Source: Saccharibacter sp. 17.LH.SD (GTDB lineage: Bacteria > Pseudomonadota > Alphaproteobacteria > Acetobacterales > Acetobacteraceae). From it: a stretch of 64,000 nucleotides of DNA. Position numbers and translations under genes: made by a program. Below the pieces are notes generated by a model. The model saw nothing but the letters and a program-made list of their open reading frames with translations, had not been told where the DNA came from and searched no databases. Below are positions 1-14,977 of the stretch, in pieces; position 1 is the stretch's first letter; every line of letters starts with the position of its first letter. The stretch covers positions 62,001 to 126,000 of the forward strand of contig NZ_WVHO01000010.1 of NCBI RefSeq assembly GCF_009834805.1, written 5' to 3'.

Positions 1-7
1 TGATTTA

Positions 8-949
8 TCATTTTTTCTTTTCCTTATCATCTTTGGGTTTCTCTTTAGGAACGTAGGCCGGGCTAACGTCGCTACGCTGACACTCTATATAAGTGAACCA
101 ATTTCCACCAGCAGGCCCATCTGGTTTGAAAGCAACTGGATCGGCAACTTCAGAGGTTAGGTAATAATCAATGCGTCTAGGCAGCCATAAACCATCGTAA
201 TTTTTATGTGGTGCTTGTATCTTTTGCCCATCTTGGTTCATTCCCGTACCGCCTTTTACCTGCCATGCGACTGGAATATAACGGCTATCAATACGAATAG
301 GCCTATAAAAAGAAAAATCAGAGCGAAAAAGAGTGAAAAAATTAATACCTTTTGGCGAATATTCTGGGTAACCAATCATTCCTGTAGTTGATGAAATAAT
401 AGGCGCATTCCTATTACTTTCATCAGTCATCTCATTATAATGAGGTCCCCATATATGTAATTCTCCCGTAGGGGCAGCACTGCCATTCTCTTCGGTCGCC
501 GGTAACGGAATATAGTCAAATGTTGATTTCACAGACGCAATAATTTTACTAATCTGCGTTAGAGCAGAACCTTCACTATAATGGTTGGTTAAAGTTCGGT
601 CTTTCCATCCTCCATGATCTACTAATGTTATGCCCGCCCTTTTACAGATATCAAACAAAAGAGAAGAAACAGAACCACGCCGACTATGGGGAGGAGATAG
701 AATATTTGCAAGTAATGTAATGATATTTGCTTGCACTTTAAGTGTGCCAGATCCTCCAGAAAAAGAAGCGAATGACTCAGTGATGACACCATAAAAAACA
801 GACACAAAGGTCTGCTTCCCTTCTTCTCCTGCTAAAACTGTAACAGTGGTTTTATAATAATCCCTTATCGTAACGATTTTCTCACCCATATTTTCCTTAA
901 CCAGCCACCATTTTATTTTCCTCTCTTTTGATCTATATAGAAAGTTCAT
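8..949 (-). CDS. Truncated baseplate-hub paralogue (array copy 1)
   Basis: The product is about 313 residues and matches the C-terminal two thirds of the full hub protein encoded at 3315-4466, from the shared motif KTTVTVLAGEEGKQTF to the lysine-rich tail (EKKK/DKKK). It lacks the hub N-terminus; instead there is a short unrelated-looking lead (MNFLYRSKERK). I chose ATG 949 because AGAGG lies 4 nt upstream; an in-frame ATG at 970 is possible. Its start is only 25 nt from the divergent start of the secreted-protein gene at 974, so there is no room for two ordinary promoters between them. The frame is intact, so it may be expressed, but it could equally be a relic of tandem duplication. Function unknown beyond homology to the tail hub. 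Confidence 0.6.
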   Translation of the reverse strand: MNFLYRSKERKIKWWLVKENMGEKIVTIRDYYKTTVTVLAGEEGKQTFVSVFYGVITESFASFSGGSGTLKVQANIITLLANILSPPHSRRGSVSSLLFDICKRAGITLVDHGGWKDRTLTNHYSEGSALTQISKIIASVKSTFDYIPLPATEENGSAAPTGELHIWGPHYNEMTDESNRNAPIISSTTGMIGYPEYSPKGINFFTLFRSDFSFYRPIRIDSRYIPVAWQVKGGTGMNQDGQKIQAPHKNYDGLWLPRRIDYYLTSEVADPVAFKPDGPAGGNWFTYIECQRSDVSPAYVPKEKPKDDKEKKK

Positions 950-973
950 GGAGCCTCTGGAAAGGAACACGCC

Positions 974-1639
974 ATGAAGAAAAGATTATTCGCCATTTCT
1001 ACCATGGCGCTAGCCTTAGTAGGGGCGGCGTGGCCGAACGTTGGGGCTGCACAATCCTATGATCAAATTAGAGCTATTCAACGTAGTAATGAGCTAAGAT
1101 ATGAGTCTGAGCTCCGTCAAATGGGGCTAGAAGCTCGCTTAGCGCATAATGCCATTTGGGCCATGAATAACGTGCCAGATTCAGCTTGTGCGACTACAGC
1201 AGGTATTCTCCTGATGGACTATGGCAAATGGTCCGAGAGTAAGATGAATAGTGACCGCATTGCCAATATGGAGGCTGGCGGCGTCTGCGAAATGAGAGTC
1301 ATCAAACGCCCTCCACCCAAAAAAGAACCTTATGATCCCAATACAGATTCTCAATACCAAGGTAAGCTCTTTTTTCAGAACCACCCTGAGGAGGCTTATG
1401 AAATTCTCCTCAAGGAAGGGGTGTCGCAGGAAGAAATTAATCACATTGCCATAATTTTTACACGTGAAGGCTATCAAATATCTGGATGTACAGCCCTTGC
1501 CGGCTTAATCATTTATCTTGCACGTGAAGGAAAAGGAGATACACCCCGCGAAGAAGACAGACCCCTTTACAGAGACAGCTTATACCAACTCACTGGTGAA
1601 CCTGAAAAAGTAGGATGTAATCCCAGGTATTTCCCTTAG
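974..1639 (+). CDS. Secreted cysteine-containing protein, array copy 1
   Basis: A 221-residue protein with a clear Sec signal peptide (MKKRLFAISTMALALVGAAW, cleavage probably near GAAQS). The mature part contains the motif LRQMGLEARLAHNAIWAM followed by conserved cysteines and LMDYGKW, and ends in a Cys-containing tail (CNPRYFP). The first 130 residues are nearly identical to the copy at 2637-3302; the last 80 differ more. AAAGG lies about 9 nt before the ATG. It faces the tail genes head to head at its start and tail to tail at its end (12 nt from the next hub copy). I do not recognise a family. Export suggests a periplasmic or extracellular role; any link to the tail particle, such as self-protection, is speculation. 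Confidence 0.75.
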   Translation: MKKRLFAISTMALALVGAAWPNVGAAQSYDQIRAIQRSNELRYESELRQMGLEARLAHNAIWAMNNVPDSACATTAGILLMDYGKWSESKMNSDRIANMEAGGVCEMRVIKRPPPKKEPYDPNTDSQYQGKLFFQNHPEEAYEILLKEGVSQEEINHIAIIFTREGYQISGCTALAGLIIYLAREGKGDTPREEDRPLYRDSLYQLTGEPEKVGCNPRYFP

Positions 1640-1650
1640 TCTATTATCTT

Positions 1651-2612
1651 CTATTTTTTCTTTTCCTTGTCATCCTTAGCTTTATCTTTGGGAATGTAGG
1701 CTGGACTTACATCGCTACGCTGACACTCTACGTAGGTAAACCAATTTCCTCCATCGGGACCATCTGGCTTGAAAGCGACGGGATCAGCCACTTCGGAGGT
1801 CAGATAATAGTCAATTCGCCTGGGAAGCCATAAGCCGTCATAATTTTTATATGGTGCTTGAATATTTTGCCCATCTTGATTCATTCCCTTACGACCTTTT
1901 ACTTGCCACGCACTTGGAATATAACGGCTCTCAATACGAATAGGCTTATAAAAGGAAAAATCAGGGCGGAAGAGAGTAAAAAACTTGATCCCGCTTGGGG
2001 AATATTCTGGGTAGCCAATCATTCCTGTAGCTGATGAAATAATAGGAATATTCGTATCATTTTTAATTTGCTCTTCGTCGTCTCGTTCTTCATTATAATG
2101 AGGCCCCCACACATGTAATTCTCCTATAGGAGAATTACTTTCGTTATTTTTTGTTACAGGAAATGGAATATAATTGAAGGTTGATTTTACAGCGGCAATA
2201 ATTTTACTAATTTGCGTTAAGGCTGTTCCTTCACTATAGTGGTTCACTAAAGTTCGGTTTTTCCAACCACCATGATCTACCAATATTATACCAGCCCTCT
2301 TGCATATATCGGCCAAGAGAGAAGAAACAAGGACAGATCCACGCCGACTATAAGGAGGAGAAAGAGTTTTTGCGAGTAAATTAATCGTATTAGCCTTTAC
2401 TTTAAAGGTACTGGACCCTCCAGAAAAAGAAGCAAAAGCCTCGGTAATAACGCCATAAAAAACAGATACAAAGGCCTGCTTTCCTTCTTCTCCCGTAAGA
2501 CCGTAACAGTAGTTTTGGAAAAATCCCTTATCGTAATGATTTTATCACCCACATTATCCTTGACCAACCACCATTTTATTTTCCTCTCTTTTGATCTATA
2601 TAGAAAGGTCAT
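1651..2612 (-). pseudogene. Frameshifted baseplate-hub paralogue (array copy 2)
   Basis: This copy aligns with the hub sequences at 8-949 and 3315-4466 over their whole shared length, but the frame breaks near 2494-2501. There the run that reads CCCGCCAAAACCG in the full gene is one base shorter (CCCGTAAGACCG). The frame changes inside the conserved TVTVLAGEEGK segment, so the upstream part ends in a spurious tail and the downstream 221 residues have no proper start. The start region (ATG 2612 with AGAGG upstream) matches copy 1. It is best treated as a broken duplicate. A sequencing error in the base run is the alternative. Confidence 0.7.
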
Positions 2613-2636
2613 GGAGCCTCTGGAAAGGAACACGCC

Positions 2637-3302
2637 ATGAAGAAAAGATTATTCGCCATTTCTACCATGGCGCTAGCCTTAGTAGGGGTAGCGTGGCCGA
2701 ATGTCGGGGCTGCACAATCCTATGATCAAATTAGAGCTATTCAACGTAGTAATGAGCTAAGATATGAGTCTGAGCTCCGTCAAATGGGGCTGGAAGCTCG
2801 CTTAGCGCACAATGCCATTTGGGCCATGAATAACGTGCCCGATTCAGCCTGTGCAACCACGGCTGGTATTCTCCTGATGGACTATGGCAAATGGTCCGAG
2901 AGTAAAATGAATAGTGACCGCATTGCCAATATGGAGGCCGGTGGTGTCTGCGAGATGAGAGTCATCAAACGCCCTCCTCCAAAAGAAGAACCTTATGATC
3001 CCAATCAAGACAGTGATTACCAAGGTAAGCTCTTTTTTCAAAATCATCCTGAAGAAGCTTATGAAATTTTTCTTAAAGAAGGCGTTTCACTCACAGAACT
3101 CAATAATATTGCCACAATTTTTACGCGTGAAGGCTATCAAATATCTGGATGTACAAGCCTTGCCGGTCAGATCATTTACCTTTTACGTAGAGGTAAAGGA
3201 GGCGTGCTTCGTGAAGGAGACATAGCTCTTTATGAAGATAGTCTGCACCGTCTAAAAAATGAATCTATAACGAGAGATTGTAATCCCAGGTATTTTCCTT
3301 GA
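2637..3302 (+). CDS. Secreted cysteine-containing protein, array copy 2
   Basis: A 221-residue paralogue of the product of 974-1639, with the same signal peptide and the same LRQMGLEARLAHNAIWAM motif. The DNA of the two genes is nearly identical for about the first 390 bp, at an offset of 1663 bp, then diverges. The C-terminal 80 residues keep a shared frame (FTREGYQISGCT, then YL.R.GKG, then CNPRYFP) with many substitutions between. That pattern, a constant 5' part and a variable 3' part, suggests duplication followed by diversification or recombination. The stop codon is 12 nt from the end of the full-length hub gene on the opposite strand. No recognised domain. Confidence 0.75.
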   Translation: MKKRLFAISTMALALVGVAWPNVGAAQSYDQIRAIQRSNELRYESELRQMGLEARLAHNAIWAMNNVPDSACATTAGILLMDYGKWSESKMNSDRIANMEAGGVCEMRVIKRPPPKEEPYDPNQDSDYQGKLFFQNHPEEAYEIFLKEGVSLTELNNIATIFTREGYQISGCTSLAGQIIYLLRRGKGGVLREGDIALYEDSLHRLKNESITRDCNPRYFP

Positions 3303-3314
3303 TCCATTCATTTT

Positions 3315-4466
3315 CTATTTTTTCTTGTCCTTATCGTCCTTAGGTTTATCTTTAGGAACGTAGGCTGGGCTTACGTCACTACGCTGACATTCCACATAGG
3401 TAAACCAGTTGCCTCCATCGGGGCCATCTGGTTTAAAAGCGACAGGGTCGGCGACTTCGGAGGTCAGATAATAATCGATGCGCTTGGGAAGCCATAAGCC
3501 ATCAAAATTTTTATTAGCTGCTTGAATCTTTTGCCCATCTTGATTAGTTTTCGCGCCCTTTACTAGCTGCCATGCTCCAGGAATATAAGCACTATCGATA
3601 TAAACAGGCTTGTAAAAAGAAAGATCAGGGCGAAAAAGGGTGAAAAAATTAATACCGCTTGGTGAATATTCTGGATAACCAATCATTCCTGTAGCTGATG
3701 AAATAATAGGAATATTTTGATCATTTTTAATTTGTTCCTCATCATCTCGTTCCTCGTTATAATGAGGCCCCCATATATGTAATTCTCCTATAGGAGAAAT
3801 GCCTTTATCGTTTTCTGTCAGAGGGAATGGAATATAATTGAAGGTTGATTTTACAGCGGCAATAATTTTACTAATTTGAGTTAAGGCTGTGCCCTCACCA
3901 TAATGGTTTGTCAGGGTTCGATTTTTCCATCCCCCATGATCTACCAATATTATCCCAGCTCTCTTGCATATATCGGCTAAGAGAGAAGAAACAAGGACAG
4001 ATCCACGCCGACTATAAGGAGGAGAAAGAGTTTTTGCGAGTAAATTAATCGTGCTGGCTTTTACTTTAAAGGTGCTGGACCCTCCAGAAAAAGAAGCAAA
4101 AGCCTCGGTAATGACACCATAAAAAACAGATATAAAAGTCTGTTTTCCTTCTTCTCCCGCCAAAACCGTAACAGTGGTTTTAGAAGGGTCCCTTAATGTG
4201 GCATTATTATCATCCACATTATTATCCTGAATATGGGACAACCGATCCATATAAAATTGTTGTATACCTTCAATCGTTAGTTCTAATTGTGCTCCACTTT
4301 TCATCCCCATTTTAGAAATATGCGCTTTGATACGATGGCCAACATCTAACGTAAGCGTTTCCCTTGAATTATCTAAATTGACCATATGGAAAATAACTTT
4401 TAGCTGTTTCCGAGAAAAAGAATTCGGTACAGCAGAGAGAGTCGTGCGTGGTTCATAATCACTCAT
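3315..4466 (-). CDS. Phage baseplate hub protein (gpD/gp27-like), full length
   Basis: A 383-residue protein placed directly after the baseplate plug gene, where contractile-tail clusters carry the hub that joins the tail tube to the spike. The N-terminal 110 residues (MSDYEPRTTLSAVPNSFSRK onward) contain a hub-like beta segment (MGMKSGAQLELTIEGIQQFY). The C-terminal part is the section repeated at 8-949 and 1651-2612. ATG 4466 is chosen because it overlaps the plug gene stop as ATGA; the frame is open further upstream, but that part is the shadow of the plug gene. The assignment rests on gene order and general resemblance to late-control protein D, not on a sequence match I could verify. Confidence 0.6.
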   Translation of the reverse strand: MSDYEPRTTLSAVPNSFSRKQLKVIFHMVNLDNSRETLTLDVGHRIKAHISKMGMKSGAQLELTIEGIQQFYMDRLSHIQDNNVDDNNATLRDPSKTTVTVLAGEEGKQTFISVFYGVITEAFASFSGGSSTFKVKASTINLLAKTLSPPYSRRGSVLVSSLLADICKRAGIILVDHGGWKNRTLTNHYGEGTALTQISKIIAAVKSTFNYIPFPLTENDKGISPIGELHIWGPHYNEERDDEEQIKNDQNIPIISSATGMIGYPEYSPSGINFFTLFRPDLSFYKPVYIDSAYIPGAWQLVKGAKTNQDGQKIQAANKNFDGLWLPKRIDYYLTSEVADPVAFKPDGPDGGNWFTYVECQRSDVSPAYVPKDKPKDDKDKKK

Positions 4467-10427: not shown

Positions 10428-12722
10428 TTACCGGGTTAGGGTGTTATTTTGGCTGTCCGTCCATAAGCCCGCATGGGCATGCCAATAGACTTCTGCGCCC
10501 TGTACATGGTTTACAACGCAATCAGAGCACCATAGATGCGCACCATCCGTTTCATTCGCTGTCGGTAACCATGCCAAAACATAGGAAGCCTGAGCCAAAG
10601 CACCACCGCCAGGCGTGTTGACTGTCGTACTCCAATTTCCATTTCCATCCGCATGGAGACCAGAAACGCGGTTAGACCCATTTGTTCCCTGTAGATCACC
10701 ACTAACAGTAATCTGCCCCGCTTCAAGATGACCTGGGGACCCTGCGTTCGTTGTTAAAAGGACTGTCCCTGGGTCTGTCCCCTGCATCATCGCCGCAGGA
10801 ACGCCCTTTTGCCGCGGCCAGAAAATGAAATTTTGCCCATTCCCTAAACCCGCACCGCCAGAAAGAAAGGCCGTTCCATTAAAGATAGTCTGCCCAGAGA
10901 AAATCGCTTGGTTGGAAAAATTGGCTTGATTAGAAAATGCCGTCTGGCCTGAAAAAGTAGTTTGTTGAGAGAACGTCGCTTGGCCCGTAATAGCCGTACT
11001 TCCATCTCCATGAACCGTCAGCCCACAATTATGCGCGTAGCCACAAATCGACAAACCACCATATTGCCCAGCATAGTTCCATTCTAGATCTGCCTGTTTA
11101 CTCCCCCCTGGTTGACCTGTGACCTGGGCTGGGCCATCAACCGTTGTGCCAAAATGAACGACCGCTTCTTTCCATCCCCAATTTCTTGGGTCACTACTGC
11201 CAATAAATTCATCCCACAAGACCGTCCGCATGGTGTTCAGCCCACGAACGGGCTGGTCCCATTCTTGTGATGTCTGCCCAACTGTTGAAGGATTAATGCC
11301 AGAAGCACCCGCAACAGGGACATATACCCCATCACCATCAATATCCCAGTTTCCCGGGCCACCATTAAGCATCAGATGATGTTTGATTACACCGCCAAGA
11401 AAGAGCTCATGGCTTGCATCAGTCAATCTGTCGGGCTGGTTCCCCGCATTCATATTAATCCCACTATAGAAAATAGAATGCGGTTTAATCGAGCCTGGAT
11501 TAATCACATTAAGGTCAATCTCAAGAGGGGTAATCTGATGGATCAAAGACCCTGCTTGATCTCCATATTGGTTCCCATCTATTTGCGCGAACCAGTTATG
11601 AGCAAACTGAGAGCCCGCGGCACCACCCCCTAGAAACACAACAGGCTTTCCATAATTGGAGTAATCATGGTCAAGCATCTCAGCCTCTGTCGATGGGGTT
11701 TGACCATTAGCCCCCGTACCACCTCCAGGAACATCCCACTCAATCACATGAATAGCCGTGTCACCTGCCTTGGGCGCATCACTGACATAGCCAGCAAATA
11801 ACCGTCGAGTAGGCAGACCATCACCATTCCCGATCCCCGGTGCGATAAGAGGACTGTTTGAGTTTGTCGTAATATACATATTGGGATGAATCTGTGATGC
11901 TTGGGCTTCCGTTAAAGGCGCAGCAAGATGCACAGCAGCATGATCCCCAATGAGTGGATTATGCCCGTTACTTTTGGCACTAAATGTAATCACACCGCCC
12001 TGGTTTGTGTGCGTAAAACCGGAAGCAAACATGACATTCCATGCGCCGTTTTGAGACGACACCGACGTGACAGGCACATCCTGCAAGACGACGATATTAT
12101 TCCCATGTTCATCTCGATACGATGCTGTCGCGGTATAGGTGTAATGAGCAGTATCAAACACAACAGGCCCACCAATATGAAGGCGGTTTTGCCCTTGTGC
12201 CACAGAGGAATATCCAGTGCTATTCGTATAAGTAGCAGGGGGCGTATAGCCTTTTACATCCAGAATAAGACGTGCTCTCGTATTGCCATACAAGGTGCAG
12301 TTTGCAACGGTGTCAAACCCGCCCACATTCACCACACCAGGTGCTCCGCTCCATGGGTTTCCTTCAGAAACAGGGTTCTGTTGAGTGTAAGTTGACCCTG
12401 TATTTACGGCCAAACCACACCCGGTATTATAAGGACCGTAAGGGTCTGTCTGAATGAGCAGCTGCCGCGGGATGACAGAACCATCAGCACGGGCTTTCCA
12501 CCCTCCCAAAAGGTCACTCTCATAGCCGCGATTGGGATCAAACCCTCCTGGGAAATTATTCGATAGAAAATCACCAAAAGCATCGGCCGAAATCAGAGCA
12601 CTTTTTGTTGTCACGCTTGGCACCACGACAGCACCGGCCGCAAACGTATTATCACCATAGAGGGAACCTACAAAAAAAGCCGTTCCCATGAGCAACATGT
12701 TCAAAAAATGATTTGAACGCAT
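10428..12722 (-). CDS. Large secreted fibre-like protein
   Basis: A 764-residue protein with an N-terminal Sec signal peptide (MRSNHFLNMLLMGTAFFVGS, cleavage probably after NTFAA). The body is rich in Gly, Asn, Thr and aromatic residues and has no recognised catalytic motif. Around residues 590-630 there is a short-period repeat of the type xFSxQ (TFSGQTAFSNQANFSNQAIF), suggestive of a beta-helical or triple-stranded fibre stem. The C-terminus contains HLWCSDCVVNH followed by YWHAHAGLWTD, which resembles ends of phage tail-fibre or surface proteins in this bacterial family, from memory only. It could be an exported adhesin or glycan-binding protein. Transcribed alone, toward the tail operon. 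Confidence 0.55.
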   Translation of the reverse strand: MRSNHFLNMLLMGTAFFVGSLYGDNTFAAGAVVVPSVTTKSALISADAFGDFLSNNFPGGFDPNRGYESDLLGGWKARADGSVIPRQLLIQTDPYGPYNTGCGLAVNTGSTYTQQNPVSEGNPWSGAPGVVNVGGFDTVANCTLYGNTRARLILDVKGYTPPATYTNSTGYSSVAQGQNRLHIGGPVVFDTAHYTYTATASYRDEHGNNIVVLQDVPVTSVSSQNGAWNVMFASGFTHTNQGGVITFSAKSNGHNPLIGDHAAVHLAAPLTEAQASQIHPNMYITTNSNSPLIAPGIGNGDGLPTRRLFAGYVSDAPKAGDTAIHVIEWDVPGGGTGANGQTPSTEAEMLDHDYSNYGKPVVFLGGGAAGSQFAHNWFAQIDGNQYGDQAGSLIHQITPLEIDLNVINPGSIKPHSIFYSGINMNAGNQPDRLTDASHELFLGGVIKHHLMLNGGPGNWDIDGDGVYVPVAGASGINPSTVGQTSQEWDQPVRGLNTMRTVLWDEFIGSSDPRNWGWKEAVVHFGTTVDGPAQVTGQPGGSKQADLEWNYAGQYGGLSICGYAHNCGLTVHGDGSTAITGQATFSQQTTFSGQTAFSNQANFSNQAIFSGQTIFNGTAFLSGGAGLGNGQNFIFWPRQKGVPAAMMQGTDPGTVLLTTNAGSPGHLEAGQITVSGDLQGTNGSNRVSGLHADGNGNWSTTVNTPGGGALAQASYVLAWLPTANETDGAHLWCSDCVVNHVQGAEVYWHAHAGLWTDSQNNTLTR

Positions 12723-14629: not shown

Positions 14630-14977
14630 ATGAAGAAAATATTTCTCGTCATGTCTACATTCATTCTTATAGCCGCGGGAAACGCCAGCGCGCAGGACAC
14701 GCACCCACAAAAAGCACCGCCGCCCTCAATCACGACCATCTCTGCTCAAAATGAGCACTATCTCCAACAAATGGGCCTGACTCCTACAACCGCCAATAAC
14801 GCTATGTGGGCCATACAGCATAAGCCACATTCACAATGCGCTTTTCTCGCAAAAACGCTTATTGGGGATTATACCATCAGCCATGTCGCCCCAGATCTCA
14901 TTGATCCGAATGATGATGGTGAGACGGTGCTTAGAATTGAAAAAAGCCATATGTGCGACCGTGCCAACCTTCAATAA
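14630..14977 (+). CDS. Small secreted homologue of the array proteins
   Basis: A 115-residue protein with a Sec signal peptide (MKKIFLVMSTFILIAAGNAS, cleavage near ASAQD). Its mature part contains LQQMGLTPTTANNAMWAI and, further on, a cysteine, an LIGDY segment and a final cysteine. This lines up with LRQMGLEARLAHNAIWAM, Cys and LLMDY in the 221-residue proteins at 974 and 2637, so it appears to be a shorter member of the same unnamed family. It sits between the MFS gene and the siderophore operon (stop 13 bp from the operon end, convergent). Function unknown. Confidence 0.65.
   Translation: MKKIFLVMSTFILIAAGNASAQDTHPQKAPPPSITTISAQNEHYLQQMGLTPTTANNAMWAIQHKPHSQCAFLAKTLIGDYTISHVAPDLIDPNDDGETVLRIEKSHMCDRANLQ

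Follow-up and report, generated by a model that had tools for sequence, protein, structure and literature searches.

Tandem secreted-protein genes and truncated hub copies in a contractile-tail cluster of Saccharibacter: a possible array of protection genes against incoming tails

The window analysed here is a stretch of 64,000 nucleotides (C10:62001-126000, where C10 is contig NZ_WVHO01000010.1) from the 2.1-Mb genome of the bee- and flower-associated Saccharibacter sp. 17.LH.SD; its left flank, C10:46001-62000, is denoted L005. Across the boundary between the two lies an array of four genes for a secreted-like protein, S1 to S4, alternating with three 5'-truncated copies of a baseplate hub gene (hub-delta1 to hub-delta3), with the intact hub gene at the end. 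The order is spike (-), S1 (+; L005 13658-14323), hub-delta1 (-; L005 14336 to about 15260), S2 (+; L005 15323 to window position 3), hub-delta2 (-; window 8-895), S3 (+; 974-1639, 221 aa), hub-delta3 (-; 1651 to about 2560), S4 (+; 2637-3302, 221 aa) and the full-length hub (-; 3315-4466, 383 aa). The repeat analysis gives a unit spacing of 1643-1664 bases, and the distance from one S gene to the next is 1651-1665 bases. A preliminary description of the window had recognised the unit of a minus-strand 5'-truncated hub and a plus-strand secreted-protein gene followed by the full hub, and had predicted a further copy to the left because the TGA at window positions 1-3 looked like the stop codon of another secreted-protein gene. 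The open reading frames, repeats and flank sequence bear out this layout: the TGA is the stop codon of S2, and the flank adds two S genes and one truncated hub.

All three truncated copies lack about the first 80-100 residues of the hub. Hub-delta2, located by a genome search with the hub protein and contained in an open reading frame at 8-970, corresponds to about hub residues 82-383 in an open frame with 77% identity to the full hub, and hub-delta3, supported by open reading frames and the same search, is 89% identical over residues 102-383 and is the one copy that also carries a frameshift, close to its 5' end. The displaced ends are alleles of one hub, 77-89% identical. The junctions between truncated hubs and the leaders of the following S genes were defined by alignment: that of hub-delta2 and S3 (880-1000) is nearly identical to the other two, including that of hub-delta3 and S4 (2545-2660). 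S2 to S4 each stand behind a truncated hub, and the spike-side leader belongs to S1 only. Promoter scans across the array gave chance-level results. A transcription terminator shared by S and hub had been considered as the cause of their co-duplication and was dropped, since the 12 bases that separate S4 from the hub form no hairpin.

The full hub matches PHROG 196 (E 4.3e-30) and Pfam E217_GP41 (28.6 bits against a gathering cut-off of 27), and the spike carries the GpV apex motif. Past the hub, the next genes encode a 99-aa baseplate protein, a Dit-like protein, the tape measure, a chaperone, the tube and the sheath, the last of these present in a single copy in the genome. The tail cluster is bordered on both sides by host-type genes; homologues of terminase and portal are found tens of kilobases off (C10:17.7-20.1 kb) or on different contigs, with host genes between them and the tail cluster. 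As judged from its gene content, the cluster encodes a contractile tail and, at this locus, no head, and is tailocin-like. It resembles R-type tailocins and E217-like tails in its gp41-like hub, GpV-apex spike, sheath, tube, baseplate J protein and absence of head genes, and differs from them in the S array and in carbohydrate-active genes of the tail-fibre type. Within the run of tail-fibre-like genes, a protein of glycosyl hydrolase family 32 is encoded at L005 4494-6116, which suggests fibres that may target carbohydrates. Just outside this run lies a gene for a pectate-lyase-like secreted protein (L005 114-1652). A gene next to the tail cluster (window 10428-12722) encodes a protein of 764 aa whose N-terminus has a signal-like stretch and which had no match in the Pfam scan; a distant relative of it (27%) borders another tail cluster (L042).

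The S proteins belong to a previously unrecognised family of helical proteins that have two cysteines and are probably exported. Their N-termini, judged by eye, resemble Sec signal peptides, from which we infer export. The invariant residues include G51, W62, P68, S70, C72 and C105 (S4 numbering). An AlphaFold2 model of S4 (mean pLDDT 79.6, above 90 in domain 1) consists of two successive helical bundles; a three-part S from Bombella gave a poor model (pLDDT 61.5). Register and predicted helices speak for the second half of S being a repeat of the first, but the profile search was not significant; in the two-domain g94 proteins the repeat is significant. In S1 to S4 and the Bombella forms of 346-356 aa, helical repeats of greater divergence come after the first domain; most prophage members have one domain, and the members from genus g94 have two clear ones. 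The family profile matches S3, and a single-domain paralogue of 115 aa is encoded in the window beyond the tail cluster (14630-14977, plus strand; profile match E 6e-35). For S and 40 family members, scans against Pfam and PHROG returned only chance-level matches, the PDB sequence search found no relative, and Foldseek (PDB, BFVD) and VIA-align searches with the S4 model yielded generic helical matches and no convincing fold match. Viral-contig scans with the hub of the window and S4 gave no match, and no S was found in phage and plasmid collections. In profile searches of 397 Acetobacteraceae genomes, the S domain was detected in 18, from 5 of the 102 genera (one of them weakly); the carriers are mostly Saccharibacter and Bombella.

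Over most of the unit, differences between the copies of the array amount to about 5-40%. Near identity among units is seen at the junctions and in most of S domain 1, the exception being domain 1 of S2. The constant first half and variable C-terminus noted earlier hold for S1, S3 and S4 (dN 0.005-0.010 in domain 1 and 0.21-0.31 in the C-terminal half, where dS is 0.7-0.9) and do not extend to S2, whose first half differs as well (dN about 0.29). The synonymous divergence of the first half is about threefold lower than that of the second (Fisher p 0.001-0.017), which implies that recombination homogenised one block of S and preserved old diversity in the other. Of the two roles first proposed for the repeat, diversification agrees with this contrast and with the recurrence of amplification at other breakpoints (see below), and a pure dose effect does not fit copies that are diversified rather than identical. 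The same divergence, the position of the locus inside a 461-kb contig and the recurrence of the layout in other genomes, including another genus, leave next to no room for an assembly artefact, even if some Bombella assemblies do break within such arrays.

The S genes are open and under purifying selection, and so is the history recorded in the hub pieces: dN/dS among them is 0.12-0.15 at dS 0.4-1.06, even when one truncated copy is compared with another (Fisher p below 1e-25). Because this holds between two truncated copies, each probably diverged within a working hub and was truncated later. Duplication in situ followed by decay would not yield such divergence. Alternatively, selection might act on the truncated copies themselves, against which the decay of the hub pieces in Bombella argues. 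Among the four S-hub pairs, the divergence of the variable S half showed no covariation with that of the hub.

We compared the locus with one genome per species of the relatives, in particular the congeners Saccharibacter sp. EH611 and S. floricola and the genus Bombella. In these, S lies on the strand opposite to the tail operon, mostly convergent with the spike or hub, and genes for BRO-N proteins and for other secreted proteins often adjoin it. S stands beside tail hub or spike genes at most loci, in many of them next to the spike rather than the hub. Bombella sp. ESL0385 reproduces the layout of the window (spike, S352, hub-delta277, S346, full hub), differs from it in the breakpoint and in the form of S, and also has two unlinked arrays of S genes and hub pieces. 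B. saccharophila has an orphan S-S-S array in which the hub ends have shrunk to 56-77 residues. In the unlinked Bombella arrays the hub pieces are short or frameshifted and S is intact; residues 30-120 of the Bombella array proteins are 98-100% identical, and the middle repeat contains a stretch at 41%. The related Bombella tail cluster tested lies in a full prophage with major head protein, portal and terminase. In the hub, the breakpoint falls at about codon 70-83 in the window, at codon 86 in the Bombella prophages and at about codon 312 in the orphan array of B. saccharophila; since the breakpoints differ between arrays, separate amplification events are the simplest explanation.

These comparisons bear on the strongest rival explanation, under which S was simply amplified and diversified in tandem for a periplasmic task unrelated to tails, with the hub 3' end carried along as a passenger, being the next sequence downstream of S and a source of homology for unequal exchange. 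The variable breakpoints, down to a hub part of 56-77 residues in B. saccharophila, would suit it, as would the S genes that occur without any tail gene near valS: one orphan site, with no tail cluster nearby and with an outer-membrane efflux gene and valS downstream of it, is common to Bombella and genus g94 (L076, L078, L085, L086). Nevertheless, S is tied to tail hub or spike genes at most loci, and the truncated hubs show separate functional histories that simple duplication in situ would not lead one to expect. We regard this explanation as rather unlikely.

In B. intestini and B. favorum, S is accompanied by accumulated spike copies and fragments instead of hub pieces. In Bombella and relatives, S genes alternate with a pair of full-length spike genes and with short pieces of spike (L080 7690-11233, L083 6315-9850, L081 6613-9063); from these sequences, the spike appears to have been displaced in the same manner as the hub. 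Such accumulation of spike fragments and of other secreted-protein genes in the gap between hub and spike could also mean that the gap is a recombination hot spot and the array a by-product retained by chance, and the decaying hub pieces of Bombella would be in line with this. It is, however, improbable, given that the S frames are open under purifying selection, that arrays recur with different breakpoints and that S has been kept in every Bombella genome (11 of 11). Scarcely more probable is the proposal that S is a phage-borne moron, serving host association or lysogenic conversion, whose secreted product works outside the cell instead of on phage tails and varies through its interaction with the insect host or with competitors. 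The signal-peptide-like N-termini, the restriction of the carriers to insect- and flower-associated genera and the presence of further secreted-protein genes in the same gap accord with it, but S has no toxin, adhesin or enzyme match, and neither its displacement together with hub 3' ends nor its amplification at the hub would be explained.

Two further observations concern neighbouring tail clusters. A second contractile-tail cluster of Saccharibacter sp. EH611 contains, within a different tail operon (L036 4149-7901), a pair of S-like genes whose first parts are identical and whose C-terminal parts diverge; two unrelated genes lie between them. In Gluconobacter, the interval from baseplate to hub in related tail clusters (L111, L112, L114, L118) holds genes other than S; many of these are on the opposite strand, and some encode signal-like N-termini. 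From gene order, the insertion of such genes into related tail operons looks general.

For the growth of the array we infer the following route. A cassette would consist of an S gene together with the 3' part of the hub gene with which it arrived. If DNA from a related tail recombined into the hub gene, the 5' end of the resident hub would gain a new 3' end together with the new S adjoining it, and the previous 3' end with its S would be pushed off the operon and retained. One end of the recombination would be homologous, inside the hub, and the other illegitimate, so that older copies lack the hub 5' end and keep their own S.

Rhs, CDI and T6SS systems already show a genomic logic of this kind, and where such displaced arrays have been studied well, the small gene that is retained is an immunity gene. 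This is the case for the T6SS immunity arrays of Vibrio cholerae, for which the same displacement model, acting on 3' ends of effectors and of VgrG-3, has been described (PMC5361080). As in the present array, the conserved 5' end of the tip gene is fixed there, old 3' ends are displaced with their small neighbours, the small genes are retained, and the arrays are amplified and mosaic. Here, in contrast, a baseplate hub of the phage type, lacking a toxin end, acts as the tip gene; the small gene converges on it, and such arrays are carried by tailocin-like clusters or prophages. Rhs loci and the orphan modules of CdiA-CT/CdiI similarly line up several 3' fragments, each accompanied by a small gene, after a single full-length gene; they differ in that the hub end here has no toxin domain, the displaced ends are alleles (77-89%) rather than unrelated domains, and S has a signal peptide-like N-terminus. 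Of the features by which immunity arrays are recognised in these systems, displaced 3' ends behind a full gene and retained orphan small genes are present, and a toxin domain is not: in Pfam and PHROG scans the hub 3' end matched hub profiles only.

A second analogy is offered by Spackle (gp61.3) of phage T4, a periplasmic helical disulfide protein that blocks the T4 tail (PMC7677548). Like S, which is predicted to be helical and is probably exported, it is a small all-helical two-cysteine domain of a phage-type element; Spackle acts on the tail tip in the periplasm, as S may do. Unlike Spackle, S occurs in variable multi-copy arrays and multi-domain forms, has no sequence match in the PDB, and its structure comparison gave only generic helical matches; furthermore, Pfam scans of the hub and spike found no lysozyme domain.

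The best remaining reading of the role of the secreted protein appears to be protection against tails. Once exported, S, with a constant domain 1 and a variable later part in its helical two-cysteine architecture, would bind the hub or spike, its putative targets, of contractile tails entering the periplasm, and the protection would cover the tails of kin and of related phages. The analogies with V. cholerae and Spackle make it most likely in our view, together with the adjacency to the hub and spike genes, the existence of orphan arrays and the evidence for selection; the signal-peptide-like N-terminus, the position opposite the tail operon and the persistence of intact orphan S arrays away from tails also favour it. 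Several observations count against it: the hub 3' end has no recognisable toxin, hub and spike have no lysozyme domain, the variable S half does not track hub divergence in the four pairs, many loci pair S with the spike and not the hub, S2 to S4 stand behind a truncated hub and not behind the spike-side leader of S1, and there is no fold match to any known inhibitor. On balance, we assign a probability of roughly 0.48, just short of even, to the reading in which the headless contractile-tail cluster bears an array of displaced cassettes, with protection genes whose products act in the periplasm and bind incoming tails. More tentative is the extended proposal of a heritable archive of anti-tail proteins, in which cassettes labelled by the hub end of their source tail are stacked by repeated displacement and the variable second domain would confer immunity to contractile phage tails and tailocins.

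The use of a displaced array at a phage-type tail hub, with an unnamed protein family, appears to be new. The available parts of two papers on Bombella genomics and prophages (PMC9147383, PMC12282179) do not mention an S array, and we found no description of one in the open-access literature; an earlier report elsewhere is possible. If S blocks contractile tails, the strategy of the Rhs, CDI and T6SS immunity arrays would be extended to the tail tips of phages and tailocins, by an unnamed protein family for which no known fold relative was found here. The hub piece in each cassette would make the specificity of S for tails directly testable, and the finding could bear on how tailocin producers escape killing by the particles of their kin. 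That similar arrays appear to have been built separately in related bacteria suggests that they may serve as a stockpile of shields against tail-based attackers.
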